From a virus, in the IMG/VR virus record IMGVR_UViG_3300050821_002279, positions 1 through 64,000 of that record: 64,000 nucleotides of DNA, one strand, 5' to 3'. Under the pieces are notes generated by a model, which was not told the DNA's origin, made no database searches, and saw only the letters and a list, made by a program, of their open reading frames with translations. Of the stretch, positions 2,048 through 43,746 are shown piece by piece. The position numbers were made by a program, and so were the translations under genes. Position 1 is the first letter of the stretch. Every line of letters starts with the position of its first letter.

Positions 2048-3091
2048 TCAATCCTCGGAAAGATCGAACCGGCGCGAGGGTTGCTTGGTGATCATCGTGT
2101 CAATCTGAGCCTTGATCGCGTCGAACTGTTCCCGGGTTGCCTCTCTCACGTTCGCATACTTTCGCAGGCGATCCGGTTGTAATCCGGTCAAGACTTGCTT
2201 GGCTTGGCCCACCAGGGAAGCAAGCTCTTGATCGTTCATCAGGTTTCGAGACTCGAACACACTGCAAAACTGCTGTATGTTCCCGATCATGCTGTCTCTG
2301 AAGACTGGCGATTTTTCGCCGGGTGCGGCGGGTTTCAACTTTTCGCTGGCATGGCTGATAAGGTCCGCAAAGCTTTCCCGCAATGCGTTTTTAACCTCCT
2401 CTGCCGCCTCTGTAAACTGTCGTTCGAGCTTCTCTGCCGCCTCTTGTCGTAATGCTGCCGGTAGATCATCGGGCACCCCCAGTGCGAGCCATTGCCATTC
2501 CAGCCCAAAGCAAGCTAAGAATTCCGACATCGGGGGATAATCTGCCTCACGGTAAAGCGGACCTAACCCGCCTTGTTTAACTGGGGTTGTCTTGGCCCGT
2601 TCCTTTGACATCGGGTATTCATCGCGCACAAGCGGGATATAATCGTTTTGGAGCTTGGTTAAAGTCGCCTGTAGTTCATCCTCGAATTCCTGTACGAGAT
2701 CCTTGCGGACAACAAAAAGCCCCTCTTTGATCTTGCTTGGCAAGGCTCGCCCAAATCGCCCGGTAAGCTTCTCCTTTGCCTCATTGAGAAAGGCGCACGT
2801 ATTGACGTAGGGATCGGGCTCCGGGTCTTCCTTGGTAGGTTTGCGGCCCAGCAATAGGCGTTTAGTGATCTTCACCGTGTCGCCGTTGCCCTTGAAATTC
2901 TTGGGCAAGTCCACTGCCGGGGTTGATCCGGTGTCATCACCGTTTGCATTGTCGGCATGCAACAGGGTTAAGTATTGCTCCAATGCAGATAAATCTCGAA
3001 CTTTTGCGCGATTCCCAGGCTTCCTTACAGTTAGGCTAAAGAATACACATTCTCTAAACTGCTCAATATCTACAGTGTTTACAGTTTGCAT
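2048..3091 (-). CDS. DUF3150-like protein next to the AAA module
   Basis: 347 residues, mostly helical, with a segment KIKEGLFVVRKDLVQEFED (about 120-138) and a coiled-coil-rich middle. Length, helical layout and position near a MoxR/AAA-type ATPase recall DUF3150 proteins, but I see no diagnostic motif, so this is a tentative match. An AAGGATCAAA ribosome-binding site precedes the ATG, as for other genes of this operon. A terminator follows it. Confidence 0.55.
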   Translation of the reverse strand: MQTVNTVDIEQFRECVFFSLTVRKPGNRAKVRDLSALEQYLTLLHADNANGDDTGSTPAVDLPKNFKGNGDTVKITKRLLLGRKPTKEDPEPDPYVNTCAFLNEAKEKLTGRFGRALPSKIKEGLFVVRKDLVQEFEDELQATLTKLQNDYIPLVRDEYPMSKERAKTTPVKQGGLGPLYREADYPPMSEFLACFGLEWQWLALGVPDDLPAALRQEAAEKLERQFTEAAEEVKNALRESFADLISHASEKLKPAAPGEKSPVFRDSMIGNIQQFCSVFESRNLMNDQELASLVGQAKQVLTGLQPDRLRKYANVREATREQFDAIKAQIDTMITKQPSRRFDLSED

Positions 3092-3146
3092 TTTATTTGA
3101 TCCTTTTGGTTGTGTGTTTACTGCTCTGCGGTGTTGTCCGCATTCT

Positions 3147-3176
3147 ACCCGGGCACATTGCCAACTATGCCCGGGT
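3147..3176. promoter_or_regulatory. 9-bp perfect hairpin in the gap before the DUF3150-like gene
   Basis: ACCCGGGCA (3147-3155) and TGCCCGGGT (3168-3176) form a perfect inverted repeat with a 12-base loop. It lies in the 91-base gap between two genes and has no T tract on either strand, so it is more likely an operator or an mRNA stability or processing element than a terminator. Confidence 0.5.
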
Positions 3177-3182
3177 GAATGA

Positions 3183-3434
3183 TTACAGCCCCAAAATCCG
3201 CTTGTTTAGCTGCGACACTTCCCAATCAAGACAGGCTTTACGGCTGGCATGCTGAAAGACAACCTTGCCCGGTTTATTCGCCCAGCACACTTCCCATACT
3301 TGCTTTGCGTGATTGAACTCGATCTGACTTGCCCGGGTAACAACGAGAGACCCTATCTCGTTTAATGGTATTGTATCCGTTGCGAGACAGACCCCGGACC
3401 CATCGGGCTTGAACTGGATTGCGCAGGCGATCAT
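3183..3434 (-). CDS. Conserved hypothetical protein
   Basis: 83 residues. The pattern FKPDGSG near the N-terminus, RASQIEFNHAKQVWEV in the middle and HASRKACLDWE at the end looks like a small conserved phage family, but I cannot name it. The ATG overlaps the stop of the DUF2997 gene, so it is translationally coupled to the Ycf35/Ycf46-like module. Confidence 0.6.
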   Translation of the reverse strand: MIACAIQFKPDGSGVCLATDTIPLNEIGSLVVTRASQIEFNHAKQVWEVCWANKPGKVVFQHASRKACLDWEVSQLNKRILGL

Positions 3435-3619
3435 TGCCCGACCTTTGCTTGCTGAGTGTTGCCCTGATAATACTCAGGTTTCTTGCTACGCTTGCCCGAC
3501 GTGCCCAAAGCTTGTTCGATTGCTTTGGTTGCTTTCTCACAGGAAGACCCTTTGAAGCCTACAGCCTCAATCGAGACTTCCCCATCTGGTGAAACAGTGA
3601 CGATTACTTGCTTGTTCAT
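3431..3619 (-). CDS. DUF2997 family protein
   Basis: 62 residues: MNKQVIVTVSPDGEVSIEA, then GFKGSSCEKATKAIEQALG, then KKPEYYQG. The order (I-V-T-V-x-P-D-G, G-x-x-G-x-x-C, T-K-A-I/L-E-x-A-L-G, K-P-E-Y-Y) is diagnostic of DUF2997. Family knowledge: these small proteins sit beside DUF1257 (Ycf35) and Ycf46-type AAA genes in cyanobacteria and other bacteria. Its start shares an A with the stop of the DUF1257 gene (TAATG). Molecular role unknown. Confidence 0.85.
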   Translation of the reverse strand: MNKQVIVTVSPDGEVSIEAVGFKGSSCEKATKAIEQALGTSGKRSKKPEYYQGNTQQAKVGQ

Positions 3620-4017
3620 TAGAATCGCCCCCCGGAAATAAGGACATTAATTGCGCCGGTTTTGGTGATTTGCCTAGTGACTGCGTGGCCTAATCTTCTG
3701 GCTGACATTTCAGCTTTATTTACGCCATACATTTGCACTAACCGCTTCCCGTTCTCCCCGATCTCTTTTGCGACCGATCCGGCCCAGAAGTCTGTCTGCA
3801 TTTTGTAAGTGCCCTTTGGCTCCCTGGTGAGAATGACATCGTACGGCCCGTCGAGCTTCACGTACGCATCGCAGTCAACCATTGTCCCGCCATAGGTGCG
3901 GCCCTGTACTTTCTGCCCCATTGGAGCGCGAACAAGTTGCTTGTGAAGATCCCGACACGCCAGGGACAGCGCATCAAGATCCCTGATTTCGCATTTGATT
4001 TCAACTAAATGGCTCAA
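3619..4017 (-). CDS. DUF1257 (Ycf35-like) protein
   Basis: 132 residues with a TTG start at 4017. GAAAGGATCAAA lies directly before it, the same ribosome-binding site used by neighbouring genes, and the family typically begins M-S-H. The protein begins SHLVEIKCEIRDLDALSLAC, continues with YDVILTREPKGTYKMQTDFWA and ends in an ITKTGAINVLI strand, matching DUF1257/Ycf35. Ycf35 is conserved in plastids and cyanobacteria next to Ycf46-type ATPases. The biochemical role is unknown. It overlaps the HNH gene stop, so that gene has been inserted between this one and the ATPase. Confidence 0.8.
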   Translation of the reverse strand: MSHLVEIKCEIRDLDALSLACRDLHKQLVRAPMGQKVQGRTYGGTMVDCDAYVKLDGPYDVILTREPKGTYKMQTDFWAGSVAKEIGENGKRLVQMYGVNKAEMSARRLGHAVTRQITKTGAINVLISGGRF

Positions 4018-4529: not shown

Positions 4530-6098
4530 TCAAATCTGAATCTGCCGCTTGCCCGCTTCTTTCGTGGGGGCAAGGGAAGGATCTTGATAGCGATAAACCC
4601 CAGGCGCGCTTGCGCTCAAAAAGCGATTGTTAGCCATGCGACACAATTCCGCAATTTGTTCGGGTGCGCTTTTAACAATTGGGACGATATATTTTGATGC
4701 CTCTTTCAACGACAATTCGGTTCTATAGGCAACATCGCAGCACGCTTTGATTTCAGCCCCGGTAAATCCGTCATCATCCGGCAACGCTTGGCGTTTTTGC
4801 AATTCGTAGTAATCGATCCAGTGTGGCCAAATTGCCGCTCTTTCCTCTTTATCGGGAAGCGGAAAAAACCAAGTGCCTAGCGTGCATCGTCTCCGAAATT
4901 CCGGGGGAATACCCGCGAGCTTATTGCAAGTCATGATCATGATGAGCTTGCCCGCACTCACAGAGACGGCAACTTCTAGTGCTGCTCTGATTTGCTCCTC
5001 CGACTGGCCAACAAGAGATCCTTTCATTGCGCCCATATCCATCCCAAGCACAGGACGGCCCGCAATATTCCCGGTAGCTTTAGCGATTGCCGACTTGCCC
5101 GTTCCCGGGTGCCCTAAAAGCAGCATTGCCGGTATGTTGAAGTCCTGCAAAAAACGAAGCAAAGCCCCGAGTTGATCTTGACTTGTGCCGCTCATGTCGC
5201 CTTGCGCTCCCGCAATCTGTTTTTCCACTTCATCGGCCCAGAGCACGCAATCAACAGGGGTTTTGCCGCTTGTGACGATGCGCGTTAAGTAGTCTTTGAT
5301 CGCCCATAACCCGCCAAGCATTTCAAAGGTTTCACCACCGCGCCAAACAGATAAACCCTTGGTTTGCTCGATCATCTTCTTTTGTCGGTTCCAAAGGGTA
5401 TCACGGTTAATCCCATCTTTAGTCACCGACATTGCCAGGATTTGTTTTGCGCCGAAAGCCGAAGTCCCCGACATCGTATCGATCACGATATCACGATCCC
5501 CGATCTTTTCCTCGGTTAGCTGCGCATCATCAGCGATATGGTCAAGGATCTTCCCTAGCTCCTCATGCCCGGGCAATGGCTCGGAGATGATCACAACATC
5601 ATTTTTAAGCTCTACAGGCAGCTTGATTGACGGCCCAATGAGCACAAGGGTAAACCCAATAGGCTCAAATGCGTCCCGGGCATTCCAAACAGCTTGCATG
5701 CATTCGGTGTCTTCCAACCACCTATTCGAGTGAACCATATACAAGATCCCCGCGACGGCCCGCCGCTTGTCCTCTGGTTTTTCAAGCTCGCTTTCTGGCA
5801 TCACAGAGAGCTTGTCCGATTTTGAAACAAGGGTTGCAAGGCAGTTTGCTGGACTGTTTAACGGCAGTTCATCAGCGAAATGCGAGAGAACGTGGCCGCC
5901 CAAAGTATTGAGCGCGATCAATCCACGCACGATGTCCCATCGAATTTGTGGGGTTGAATCATGCGACCCGTTTAGAGCTTTGGCGCATTGAACGATTGTT
6001 GCTGCCGGGTCTGCGGACTCGATAGCGACAATCGGCACCCCAGCCCTGCGAGCAGAGCGGAATGGATTAGGCGCGGCTTGTGTGGTTTTAGGTGCCAT
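4530..6098 (-). CDS. Ycf46-like AAA ATPase with Walker B placed before Walker A
   Basis: 522 residues, ATG at 6098 just after the upstream TGA. The N-terminal half (GVPIVAIES, later GFTLVLIGPSIKLPVEL and a following PLP) matches the regulatory domain of Ycf46-type AAA proteins. The ATPase half carries CVLWADEVEK (about 283-292), then GHPGTGKS (about 327-334), then GSLVGQSEEQIRAAL, IMTCNK as sensor 1 (about 388-393) and PPEFRRRC as an arginine-finger region. In canonical family members the DExE Walker B lies between Walker A and sensor 1; here that segment precedes Walker A and the usual place is short. It is probably an active NTPase working with the DUF1257 and DUF2997 products. Confidence 0.85.
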   Translation of the reverse strand: MAPKTTQAAPNPFRSARRAGVPIVAIESADPAATIVQCAKALNGSHDSTPQIRWDIVRGLIALNTLGGHVLSHFADELPLNSPANCLATLVSKSDKLSVMPESELEKPEDKRRAVAGILYMVHSNRWLEDTECMQAVWNARDAFEPIGFTLVLIGPSIKLPVELKNDVVIISEPLPGHEELGKILDHIADDAQLTEEKIGDRDIVIDTMSGTSAFGAKQILAMSVTKDGINRDTLWNRQKKMIEQTKGLSVWRGGETFEMLGGLWAIKDYLTRIVTSGKTPVDCVLWADEVEKQIAGAQGDMSGTSQDQLGALLRFLQDFNIPAMLLLGHPGTGKSAIAKATGNIAGRPVLGMDMGAMKGSLVGQSEEQIRAALEVAVSVSAGKLIMIMTCNKLAGIPPEFRRRCTLGTWFFPLPDKEERAAIWPHWIDYYELQKRQALPDDDGFTGAEIKACCDVAYRTELSLKEASKYIVPIVKSAPEQIAELCRMANNRFLSASAPGVYRYQDPSLAPTKEAGKRQIQI

Positions 6099-38874: not shown

Positions 38875-38880
38875 AAAGAA

Positions 38881-38910
38881 AATGACTGCCCAAAAAATCA
38901 GGCAGTCATT
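38881..38910 (-). terminator. Terminator of the minus-strand RAMP-like cassette
   Basis: AATGACTGCC (38881-38890) and GGCAGTCATT (38901-38910) form a perfect 10-bp stem with a 10-base loop. On the minus strand it is followed by TTCTTTTTATTC, a T-rich tail, so it ends transcription arriving from the right. On the plus strand there is no T tract. Confidence 0.75.
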
Positions 38911-38972
38911 TATCTGACCACACCATGACTTTACTTACCAGAGATTAGCTCACCATAGCGCACTGCATCCTG

Positions 38973-39310
38973 CCAGTCCCGAACTTGCCAATCCTGATTG
39001 TTCCAAACCTTACCGGCTTTTCAGCCCGTGCCTTACCAAACCAAACCGGACCCGGCCTGAGAATGGAGAGCCACAACCCGCCAAGTCTCTCCATGCCATA
39101 TCATGCAACTCCACTACCTACCGCCCCACGCTCGACCTCTGCCAACCGGAACGCGCCTAAGCAGACCGGCCAAAAGGCCCGTACCAAACCTAACACTTCC
39201 GAACCACTCCGAAGCCAGCCTGACCGCACTCAACCATTCCAAACCATGCACGATCTCGCCGAAACCAGCCTTTGCTAACCGGACACGAGCCCACACTACC
39301 GCACCACTCC
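38973..39310 (-). ncRNA. Pentanucleotide-periodic GGNNN region, 3' of the RAMP-like gene
   Basis: On the plus strand CC dinucleotides (GG on the transcribed minus strand) fall at exact five-base spacing in three phase blocks: 7 of 9 slots from 38973 to 39014, 18 of 29 slots from 39026 to 39167, 16 of 26 slots from 39184 to 39310. Bases between are variable. The period is not a codon multiple, frames here are broken, and no gene is seen. It lies between the RAMP-like gene's stop (39323) and its terminator (38881-38910), so it would be the 3' untranslated part of that transcript. Confidence 0.7.
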
Positions 39311-39322
39311 TGAGCGTGTCCG

Positions 39323-39955
39323 TCACAGATCGAGGATTTTGAAACCCACGATCTGAAATCTTCCGAAAGTTGGACGAAAATCCCCAACGCCGATTAACTT
39401 TCCGGCCTGCGTGATAACCTCGTTAAGCAAAGTTGGACTGACATACTCGGGAAGGTTGACCATTAATTGAATTTTGGCCGTCCACCCAGCTTTCATCGCC
39501 GGTCTCGTTCGAGTGATCGCATTTCGCTGGATCACAACCCGTCTTTTATCTTCGTAATCCCAATCCTTAACGCCAAGGCTTGCGAGGTTGGTAACGCTCA
39601 CAACCGCCGCCTTGAACAGATCCGCAGCAGACTTTCTCGGACTTCGCGGGTCTTGGCGAAACTTGGATGCGGCGATGATACTCATCCGTAGGTACTCACC
39701 GGGGATGGCAAGGTTGCCTTTCTCGTCACGATAAACATAACTTTCCAAGTTATCCGACTTCTTTGCAGCACTGCCCTTCTTGGCTTTGGCCTTTTCTTCA
39801 ACCGCTTCACAATTCCAACGGTGGAAAAGAAGATCCGCACTTCCCTGAATCTGAATTTCCGCAATGTACGGAATTTCCATTTCGATTGCATCTTTAGCAC
39901 CATTTGTGGGACAACGATCCCCGCCGAGTTCTGTGGTTTTTGTCGCTGATTTCAT
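39323..39955 (-). CDS. RAMP/Cas7-like RNA-binding protein candidate
   Basis: 210 residues from ATG at 39955 (an upstream reading to 40009 runs through the periodic sequence and is rejected). EIQIQGSADLLFHRW near the start, NLAIPGEYLRMSIIAASKF in the middle, RTRPAMKAGWTAKIQLMVN, then TQAGKLIGVGDFRPTFGRF. An opening strand, an I-P-G-x-x-L-(K/R) element and a C-terminal helix running into a glycine-rich loop G-x-G-D-x-R-P-x-F-G-R-F are what RAMP-fold (Cas7/Cas6-like) proteins show. I infer RNA binding; no catalytic residues are evident. It is transcribed against the late operon and flanked by the GGNNN sequences. Confidence 0.6.
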   Translation of the reverse strand: MKSATKTTELGGDRCPTNGAKDAIEMEIPYIAEIQIQGSADLLFHRWNCEAVEEKAKAKKGSAAKKSDNLESYVYRDEKGNLAIPGEYLRMSIIAASKFRQDPRSPRKSAADLFKAAVVSVTNLASLGVKDWDYEDKRRVVIQRNAITRTRPAMKAGWTAKIQLMVNLPEYVSPTLLNEVITQAGKLIGVGDFRPTFGRFQIVGFKILDL

Positions 39956-39961
39956 AATTAA

Positions 39962-40048
39962 CCATTCCACGCCGTAACACGCCGCGACTGGCCAAGGCAA
40001 TGACGGCACTGCCGCATCCAGCCCTGCCGTGTTTCTGGCAACGCACCC
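39962..40048 (-). ncRNA. Pentanucleotide-periodic GGNNN leader, 5' of the RAMP-like gene
   Basis: CC on the plus strand (GG in the transcript) occupies 9 of 18 five-base slots from 39962 to 40047 in one phase. It ends seven bases before the ATG at 39955. With the 3' block it makes a gene whose two untranslated regions share the same unusual periodicity. Confidence 0.6.
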
Positions 40049-40156
40049 GCCCGTCGATTGCTGTAACGCAGCAGTTGGGAACCGCTACCAAACGGCGAAC
40101 GAGTGCAAATTTGTTTTGGTTGTTTCATCCGGTTACAGTCGGACTTTACGCTTGCT

Positions 40157-40184
40157 ACTTTATCAAAAATGGCATTACTGTCAA
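40157..40184 (-). promoter_or_regulatory. Promoter of the RAMP-like cassette
   Basis: On the minus strand perfect TTGACA (40184-40179), 16-base spacer, TAAAGT (40162-40157). Transcription would start about 40150 and read the GGNNN leader, the RAMP-like gene, the GGNNN trailer and stop at the 38881-38910 hairpin. Confidence 0.6.
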
Positions 40185-42834: not shown

Positions 42835-43746
42835 ATGAAAACCACAGTCATTCACCACAGCGCAGACTACGACGGCATTTTCTGCCGTGAAATTGCACGG
42901 AAGTTTTTGACTGAAGCTGAGTTGATCGGATGGGATTTTGCCGATCCGCCACTGCCGGTCCCTGAAGGAAACGTGCTTGTCATGGATCTGCCACTGGACG
43001 CAACGTTTGGTGGAAAGTCTGGACAGTTCAACATGGGAGTCGTAAACGCATGGGAGTCCAACCGCTTGATTTGGATTGATCATCATCAAAGCGCGATAAA
43101 AACGCACCCCCCTGAAGTTGGCGGCTATCAAATCGACGGCGTTGCAGCATGTCGGTTGGCGTGGCAATGGTTCACTCAGACCGGACCCGACAATCCCCCC
43201 AGCGATCCGGCGCTTGCTAAAAAGGAAGACTTCATAGAGCGCAGGGTTTCAGAGCCAATCGCTGTTCGCCTCGCCGGTGAATACGACATTTGGGACAAAC
43301 GCGATCCTAACGCTGAACTGTTTCAGCATGGATTGAGAAGCCAGGAGCTTTCGCGTAACGAATGGGAATGGTTGCTCAGCATGAATCCCGGGGCAGTTCA
43401 AGTAGTTGAAAAGCTACTCAATCAGGGCTCTGCGGTTCAATATGCTCAACGCAAGCAAGACGAGTTCATTGCCAAAAGCCGCTCATTCGACGTGGAATGG
43501 GAGGGCTTGAAGTTCATGGCGATTAACGCCGTGCGCTGCAACTCTCTGACGTTCGAGGCCGCAACCCGTGCAGACCACGACGCGCTTATGGGCTTCTACT
43601 GGAACGGCAAATTCTGGAACGTGAGCCTGTACCATGCGCCGCACCGGAAGGATTTGGACCTGTCGGCCATCGCAGTGAAGTACGGCGGCGGCGGTCACAG
43701 GGGAGCATGCGGTTTCAGGGCTGATAAACTTCCGTTTATTCCGTAG
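42835..43746 (+). CDS. DHH/DHHA1 phosphoesterase
   Basis: 303 residues. TVIHHSADYDGIFCREIA (about 4-21) is the first DHH motif, LIWIDHHQSA (about 78-87) the D-H-H itself, GEYDIWDKRDP a further Asp motif, and KYGGGGHRGACGF (about 282-294) the DHHA1 substrate loop. Metal-dependent 3'-5' nanoRNase, cyclic-dinucleotide or pAp phosphatase activity is expected of the family. In a phage it could remove cyclic-dinucleotide or short-oligonucleotide alarm signals (inference). Confidence 0.85.
   Translation: MKTTVIHHSADYDGIFCREIARKFLTEAELIGWDFADPPLPVPEGNVLVMDLPLDATFGGKSGQFNMGVVNAWESNRLIWIDHHQSAIKTHPPEVGGYQIDGVAACRLAWQWFTQTGPDNPPSDPALAKKEDFIERRVSEPIAVRLAGEYDIWDKRDPNAELFQHGLRSQELSRNEWEWLLSMNPGAVQVVEKLLNQGSAVQYAQRKQDEFIAKSRSFDVEWEGLKFMAINAVRCNSLTFEAATRADHDALMGFYWNGKFWNVSLYHAPHRKDLDLSAIAVKYGGGGHRGACGFRADKLPFIP

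Follow-up and report, generated by a model that had tools for sequence, protein, structure and literature searches.

Closest described systems

Viral Interference Programmable Repeat (VIPR) systems were described in a preprint made public in April 2026 (PMC13142463). Their effector, Vipr, is a phage-encoded ancestral RAMP protein that binds vrRNAs composed of 9-16 YNNGG repeats and a 3' tail; the GGY of the vrRNA is left unpaired, the NN pairs read double-stranded DNA and pass over one base each time, usually at the wobble position, and the Vipr-vrRNA complex represses transcription (PMC13142463). In nature VIPR is directed against competing phages, against satellites and against further VIPR systems, and the loci "typically" carry a vap gene (PMC13142463). 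Type II VIPR is represented by Escherichia phage SUSP1 and a Pseudomonas fulva prophage (PMC13142463, PDB 36pp), and the SUSP1 RAMP protein was reported to form a stable complex with the periodic RNA (PMC13142463).

The Cas7/Csm3 proteins of class 1 CRISPR-Cas systems share the RAMP fold and likewise assemble as a backbone along a guide RNA at regular steps. In these proteins the thumb disrupts the pairing of the guide at intervals. This feature is also discussed in PMC13142463.

Layout of the cassette

We analyzed a stretch of 64,000 nucleotides (hereafter the window) from the uncultivated virus record IMGVR_UViG_3300050821_002279. Its minus strand carries a compact cassette that is almost certainly a VIPR system; the window thereby represents a further example of VIPR and not a new kind of system, and the statement in the initial annotation that no system with this layout had been described is superseded by PMC13142463. 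The following elements were assigned:

40157..40184, minus strand: candidate sigma-70-like promoter, TTGACA-16-TAAAGT with an extended TG (10/12 consensus matches)
39959..40048, minus strand: upstream GGYNN array U, about 18 slots, 9 of them with GG, running up to the vipr start codon (z ~4.6-5.1)
39323..39955, minus strand: vipr gene, 210 aa, predicted RAMP protein (PHROG 4652)
39181..39320, minus strand: downstream array block B1, 28 GGYNN slots (putative guide RNA region)
39168..39180, minus strand: 13-nt hairpin linker GGGCC-TTTT-GGCC, candidate vrRNA tail
39028..39167, minus strand: downstream array block B2, 28 GGYNN slots
39015..39027, minus strand: 13-nt hairpin linker GGGCT-GAAA-AGCC
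38910..39014, minus strand: downstream array block B3, 21 GGYNN slots, continuing into the terminator
38880..38911, minus strand: intrinsic terminator, 14-pair stem and T tract

Translation of the vipr gene gives 210 residues with zero internal stops. The terminator predicted earlier was recovered as a 14-pair stem at 38911-38880, and it may also form the tail of the last vrRNA. The promoter proposed in the initial annotation (40184-40157) fits the consensus well and has an extended TG. It is retained here as a candidate only, since chance alone predicts 0.9 sites of this quality over the 1.6-kb stretch. Elsewhere in the window, a gene at 42835-43746 (plus strand) resembles DHH-family phosphoesterases (phrog_4771, E-value 1.8e-18).

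Five-base periodicity and the GGY-NN unit

The initial annotation reported GG at five-base steps on both sides of the gene, and the comparison with 5000 dinucleotide-preserving shuffles confirms it. Counted on the strand of the gene, GG pairs at lags 5+10+15+20 number 93 in the downstream stretch 38911-39322 (36.8 +/- 5.5 in the shuffled sequences, z = 10.2, reached in 0/5000 shuffles) and 15 in the upstream stretch 39956-40184 (4.5 +/- 2.1, z = 5.1, reached in 4/5000), with no lag-5 excess of GG within the body of the vipr gene. A small hidden Markov model for GGYNN, used as the array detector on both strands of the whole record (76,955 bases), reported these two arrays only.

The third position of the downstream slots is a pyrimidine in 34 of the 44 slots with GG and in 29 of the 33 without it, which indicates that the unit is GGY-NN and that the register is held even where the GG has been lost. 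Pooled across loci, the slot composition agrees with this unit (G 0.86 at position 1, G 0.77 at position 2, Y 0.84 at position 3, positions 4-5 near uniform). Since the full GG is retained in only 44/77 downstream slots (~57%), some of the guides may be decayed, a point that weighs against the assignment to VIPR; in the upstream array GG is missing from about 9 of 18 slots. The three downstream phase blocks noticed earlier were found again, as runs of 28, 28 and 21 slots divided by two 13-nt hairpins, whose length (13 mod 5 = 3) accounts for the two phase shifts. Comparison of the two linkers reveals a compensatory change of the last stem pair from C-G to U-A, and the related locus L002 has a GGGCC-GAAA-GGCC hairpin with the same fold as the first linker at the matching place. 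The GG occupancy of L002 is similar to that of the window.

The Vipr protein

The window protein matches PHROG 4652 (E-value 7e-18), for which PHROGs lists no function and which is also matched by the SUSP1, Medea1 and LESphi2 proteins; no model in Pfam, NCBIfam or PADLOC matches it. A search of the PDB with hmmsearch, using a family profile built from 12 relatives, identified 36pp_D ("SUSP1 Vipr protein", E-value 5.5e-11) as the sole significant sequence, the next best being lectins (E-value 2). The single window sequence retrieved the same 36pp chain (E-value 1.5e-5), over the conserved GVGDFRPTFGRF region. The pairwise homology to SUSP1 is thus distant, which we counted against the assignment to VIPR, and the identity to the Pseudomonas Medea1 homologue is ~28% over 61% of the length. 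A VIPR effector is a small RAMP protein with an RRM core and a glycine-rich loop, and the window protein agrees with this in its size and fold; the motif GxxDxRPxxGRF is conserved across the family alignment. The homologue from phage DSL-LC04 (OR003939.1 22429-23046; L016:5965-6582) is annotated, apparently wrongly, as a helix-turn-helix regulator.

The AlphaFold2 model of the window protein (mean pLDDT 77, pTM 0.71) retrieved 87 PDB structures with Foldseek at E <= 1e-3, and the best hits were all CRISPR Csm3/Cas7-type RAMPs (probability 1.00, TM ~0.5, E ~5e-6). Judged from this model and from the solved homologue, the 210-aa product is a RAMP protein, as the initial annotation had supposed. 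A class 1 CRISPR-Cas locus is not indicated: PADLOC reports no match for the protein, no cas-like neighbor is conserved, and the flanks consist of GGYNN arrays and phage genes. Unlike the class 1 systems, with their 6-nt step, the cassette has a 5-nt step and a guide contained in noncontiguous NN pairs.

Arrays among relatives

The initial annotation had proposed as a check that the flanks of homologues be periodic, and this is what we found: of 43 relatives, 41 have GGYNN arrays beside the gene on the sense strand. Among the viral relatives, which include phage DSL-LC04, sense arrays lie within 600 nt of vipr at 11 of 12 non-redundant loci; these loci also supplied the emission values of the detector and therefore do not form an independent set. 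The relatives on bacterial contigs (labeled Phycisphaerae, Stenomitos, Thermomonas, Alicyclobacillus and others) constitute an independent set, in which 30 of 31 have sense arrays and none has an antisense array; the single exception, L216, begins at a contig edge. As a positive control, the detector applied to SUSP1 (KT454805) recovered the arrays described in PMC13142463, one before and three after vipr.

The exceptional locus L004 (IMGVR_UViG_3300005471_000003, 2956-3700) carries a vipr of 70% identity in the corresponding position, next to the homologous large gene, and has no recognizable GGYNN array near vipr or elsewhere in the 58.6-kb record. It is perhaps an orphan vipr, whose guides are supplied in trans or have decayed. 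In the case of L002 the protein is 85% identical to that of the window and the NN series agree at the chance rate only, as expected of guides that turn over.

Several further arrangements were observed. L007 has, in addition to sense arrays, one antisense GGYNN array, the only such array near vipr among the viral relatives. Short GGYNN arrays are found at least 1 kb from vipr, beside other genes, at L012:1873-1968 and 5063-5272 and at L168:1500-1560. The Stenomitos rutilans contig JAHHIE010000002.1 carries two vipr loci (L203 and L204) ~100 kb apart, with arrays of equal size at the same positions. In IMG/VR at least 120 stretches contain eight consecutive perfect GGYNN repeats.

The one-base-skip code and candidate targets in the clade

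We compared 12-slot windows (every third start) of 488 decoded arrays with both strands of 3.8 Mb of fetched sequence, allowing skips of 0, 1, 2 or 4 bases between the NN pairs (a skip of 3 would be the array itself). At least 10 of 12 NN pairs matched in 12 cases with the 1-nt skip vs 0, 0 and 1 cases with skips of 0, 2 and 4; about 8 of the 12 are independent, because L180/L187, L193/L197 and two L195 windows are related arrays and because a later targeted fetch added extra copies of the first L005 match. The matched triplets form an open frame, with the skipped base as the third codon position, in 11 of the 12 cases; in the remaining case it is the opposite strand that is open. Taken alone, openness across 12 codons is weak evidence; the matches to vipr genes are unambiguous.

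The targets that could be read are the codons of the vipr G-loop (antisense), the KGSKAKKTD codons of vipr and a Walker-A motif, PTGGGKT. The ten NN pairs of the guide at L005:3594-3670 match, in antisense, the codons for GDFRPTYGRF, a motif universal in vipr. When a nine-pair pattern decoded from this guide was scanned against 2.9 million viral contigs, in what is close to a blind test, all 18 of the 18 hits fell in vipr genes, at the GDFRPTYGRF codons, and the skipped bases were wobble positions. Between the L005 guide and the vipr gene of the window, 9/10 pairs match. KGSxAKKTD, the other conserved motif of vipr, is matched in other phages at its sense codons by guides at L187:10 (minus strand) and L180:628 (plus strand), and the L193, L197 and L005 arrays match Walker-A (PTGGGKT) codons of other phages (L138 and L073), possibly of a helicase. 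In long arrays a match spans ~10-15 slots and then ends, hence the long blocks are probably strings of guides. Altogether, the sequence comparisons support the view that the 1-nt-skip rule also operates in this clade.

The guides of the window itself gave no such matches. Peptides decoded from them in both readings had no match at E <= 10 among phage records, and nothing above chance indicated self-targeting within the own genome. Alignments of decoded B2 and B1 with viral contigs yielded 23 and 16 short-pattern stretches, of which none was confirmed, and the exact 8-pair patterns of B3, B2 and B1 gave 8, 17 and 0 hits, which beyond the seed extended no better, or hardly better, than chance. 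The best extension (L156/L164, 5/20 outside the seed) is unconvincing among 25 tried. This negative outcome was counted against the assignment to VIPR.

Comparison with type II VIPR

The cassette shares with the SUSP1 and P. fulva systems (PMC13142463, PDB 36pp) a homologous, phage-encoded RAMP protein, GGY/NN arrays on both sides of the gene and on its own strand, hairpin-like elements at the ends of arrays, and, as far as the clade is concerned, the 1-nt-skip matches. It differs from them in several respects. No vap1-like (PHROG 5926) gene adjoins vipr in the window; vipr has no conserved neighbor in the clade, vap-like or other, and PHROG 5926 was found in SUSP1, Medea1 and LESphi2 only. 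As vap is only "typical" according to PMC13142463, its absence, although a point against the assignment, is compatible with membership in VIPR. Instead of 9-16 repeats and a pseudoknotted tail, the window has blocks of 21-28 slots that end in short hairpins (13-nt tetraloop linkers) or in the terminator, and we counted this block length against the assignment to VIPR. The occupancy of GG in the window is ~57%. A search of the window and six related loci against Rfam, including hammerhead ribozymes, gave no match at the gathering score, so the hammerhead-interspersed type of VIPR was not encountered. Both the missing vap and the combination of long blocks with short hairpins between them may be marks of a variant, or the cassette may belong to one of the published types I-VII.

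We tentatively consider a bolder description, which at present appears somewhat less probable than its contrary: a VIPR clade that lacks vap and places its guides head to tail in long blocks with 13-nt tetraloop hairpins between them. One transcript would then give rise to many guides, and these would recurrently be aimed at the vipr genes of rivals, at the invariant codons of the G-loop and of KGSxAKKTD, where the wobble skip would defeat synonymous escape.

Alternative explanations

One alternative, which develops the proposal of the initial annotation, is that the product forms a structural or autoregulatory filament along its own transcript, with GG read at every fifth base and the bases in between uninformative. 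In its favor, the protein is RAMP-like and its gene lies between sense-strand arrays, and the association of such a protein with periodic RNA has a precedent in the SUSP1 complex (PMC13142463). Mere coating of the mRNA is nonetheless unsupported, and we regard it as very improbable: the NN series match coding sequences of other phages far more often at the 1-nt skip than at other skips, the decoded L005 pattern found vipr genes exclusively, and the solved and tested homologue uses its guides against DNA (PMC13142463). The intervening bases, which this model leaves without information, are the guide in VIPR, and the target matches in the clade fit this code. Even less credible is an explanation by two-tetrad RNA G-quadruplexes (GG-N3-GG), in which the repeats would act structurally or in regulation and the RAMP-like protein would be incidental. 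GG at 5-nt steps formally fits such a motif; a quadruplex, however, does not need the register and the position-3 pyrimidine that persist in slots without GG (29/33), and the arrays accompany vipr homologues across phyla and are absent elsewhere in the record.

Decay of a VIPR locus, with vipr kept and GG lost from many repeats so that the system no longer functions, is a more serious alternative, albeit still an improbable one. It would explain why GG is missing from 33/77 downstream and about 9/18 upstream slots, it has a parallel in L004, with vipr at the same site and no arrays, and it agrees with the failure to find targets for the window guides. On the other hand, the register is exact through all blocks and position 3 is still a pyrimidine, the hairpin linkers are preserved, with a compensatory stem change between them, the reading frame of vipr is uninterrupted, and L002 has a similar occupancy. 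We prefer the reading of the cassette as a VIPR system whose copy in the window would be active.

Proposed mechanism

By analogy with the homologues, the VIPR cassette probably allows the phage to recognize and silence the DNA of rival phages. One minus-strand unit would give rise to Vipr and to vrRNAs of GGY-NN pentamers from the flanking untranslated stretches, the window blocks presumably being cut into guides of ~10-15 repeats. Vipr subunits would assemble along the vrRNA, probably one per pentamer, and hold the GGY, which would stay unpaired as in the homologues (PMC13142463). Successive NN pairs could then bind double-stranded DNA, each separated from the next by one skipped target base, usually the codon wobble, as suggested by the homologues and by the matches in the clade. 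Binding would repress a gene of a competing phage or of a rival VIPR (PMC13142463), and the targets of the window guides are expected to be rival phages. RNA binding, recognition of double-stranded DNA and repression are borrowed from the homologues in the preprint (PMC13142463); the present analysis contributes the arrays with their strand and position, the homology to a solved Vipr, the RAMP fold, the arrangement conserved across phyla and the excess of 1-nt-skip matches.

Implications

The analysis places a recently described RNA-guided system in an uncultivated phage and extends its clade to contigs labeled Planctomycetota, Cyanobacteria, Proteobacteria and Alicyclobacillus. PHROG 4652, of function unknown so far, can now be named Vipr. 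To the tests that PMC13142463 carried out in two other clades, the matches in the clade add independent computational support for the 1-nt-skip code, and, as the guides of several phages aim at the most conserved vipr codons, a conflict of VIPR against VIPR becomes directly testable.
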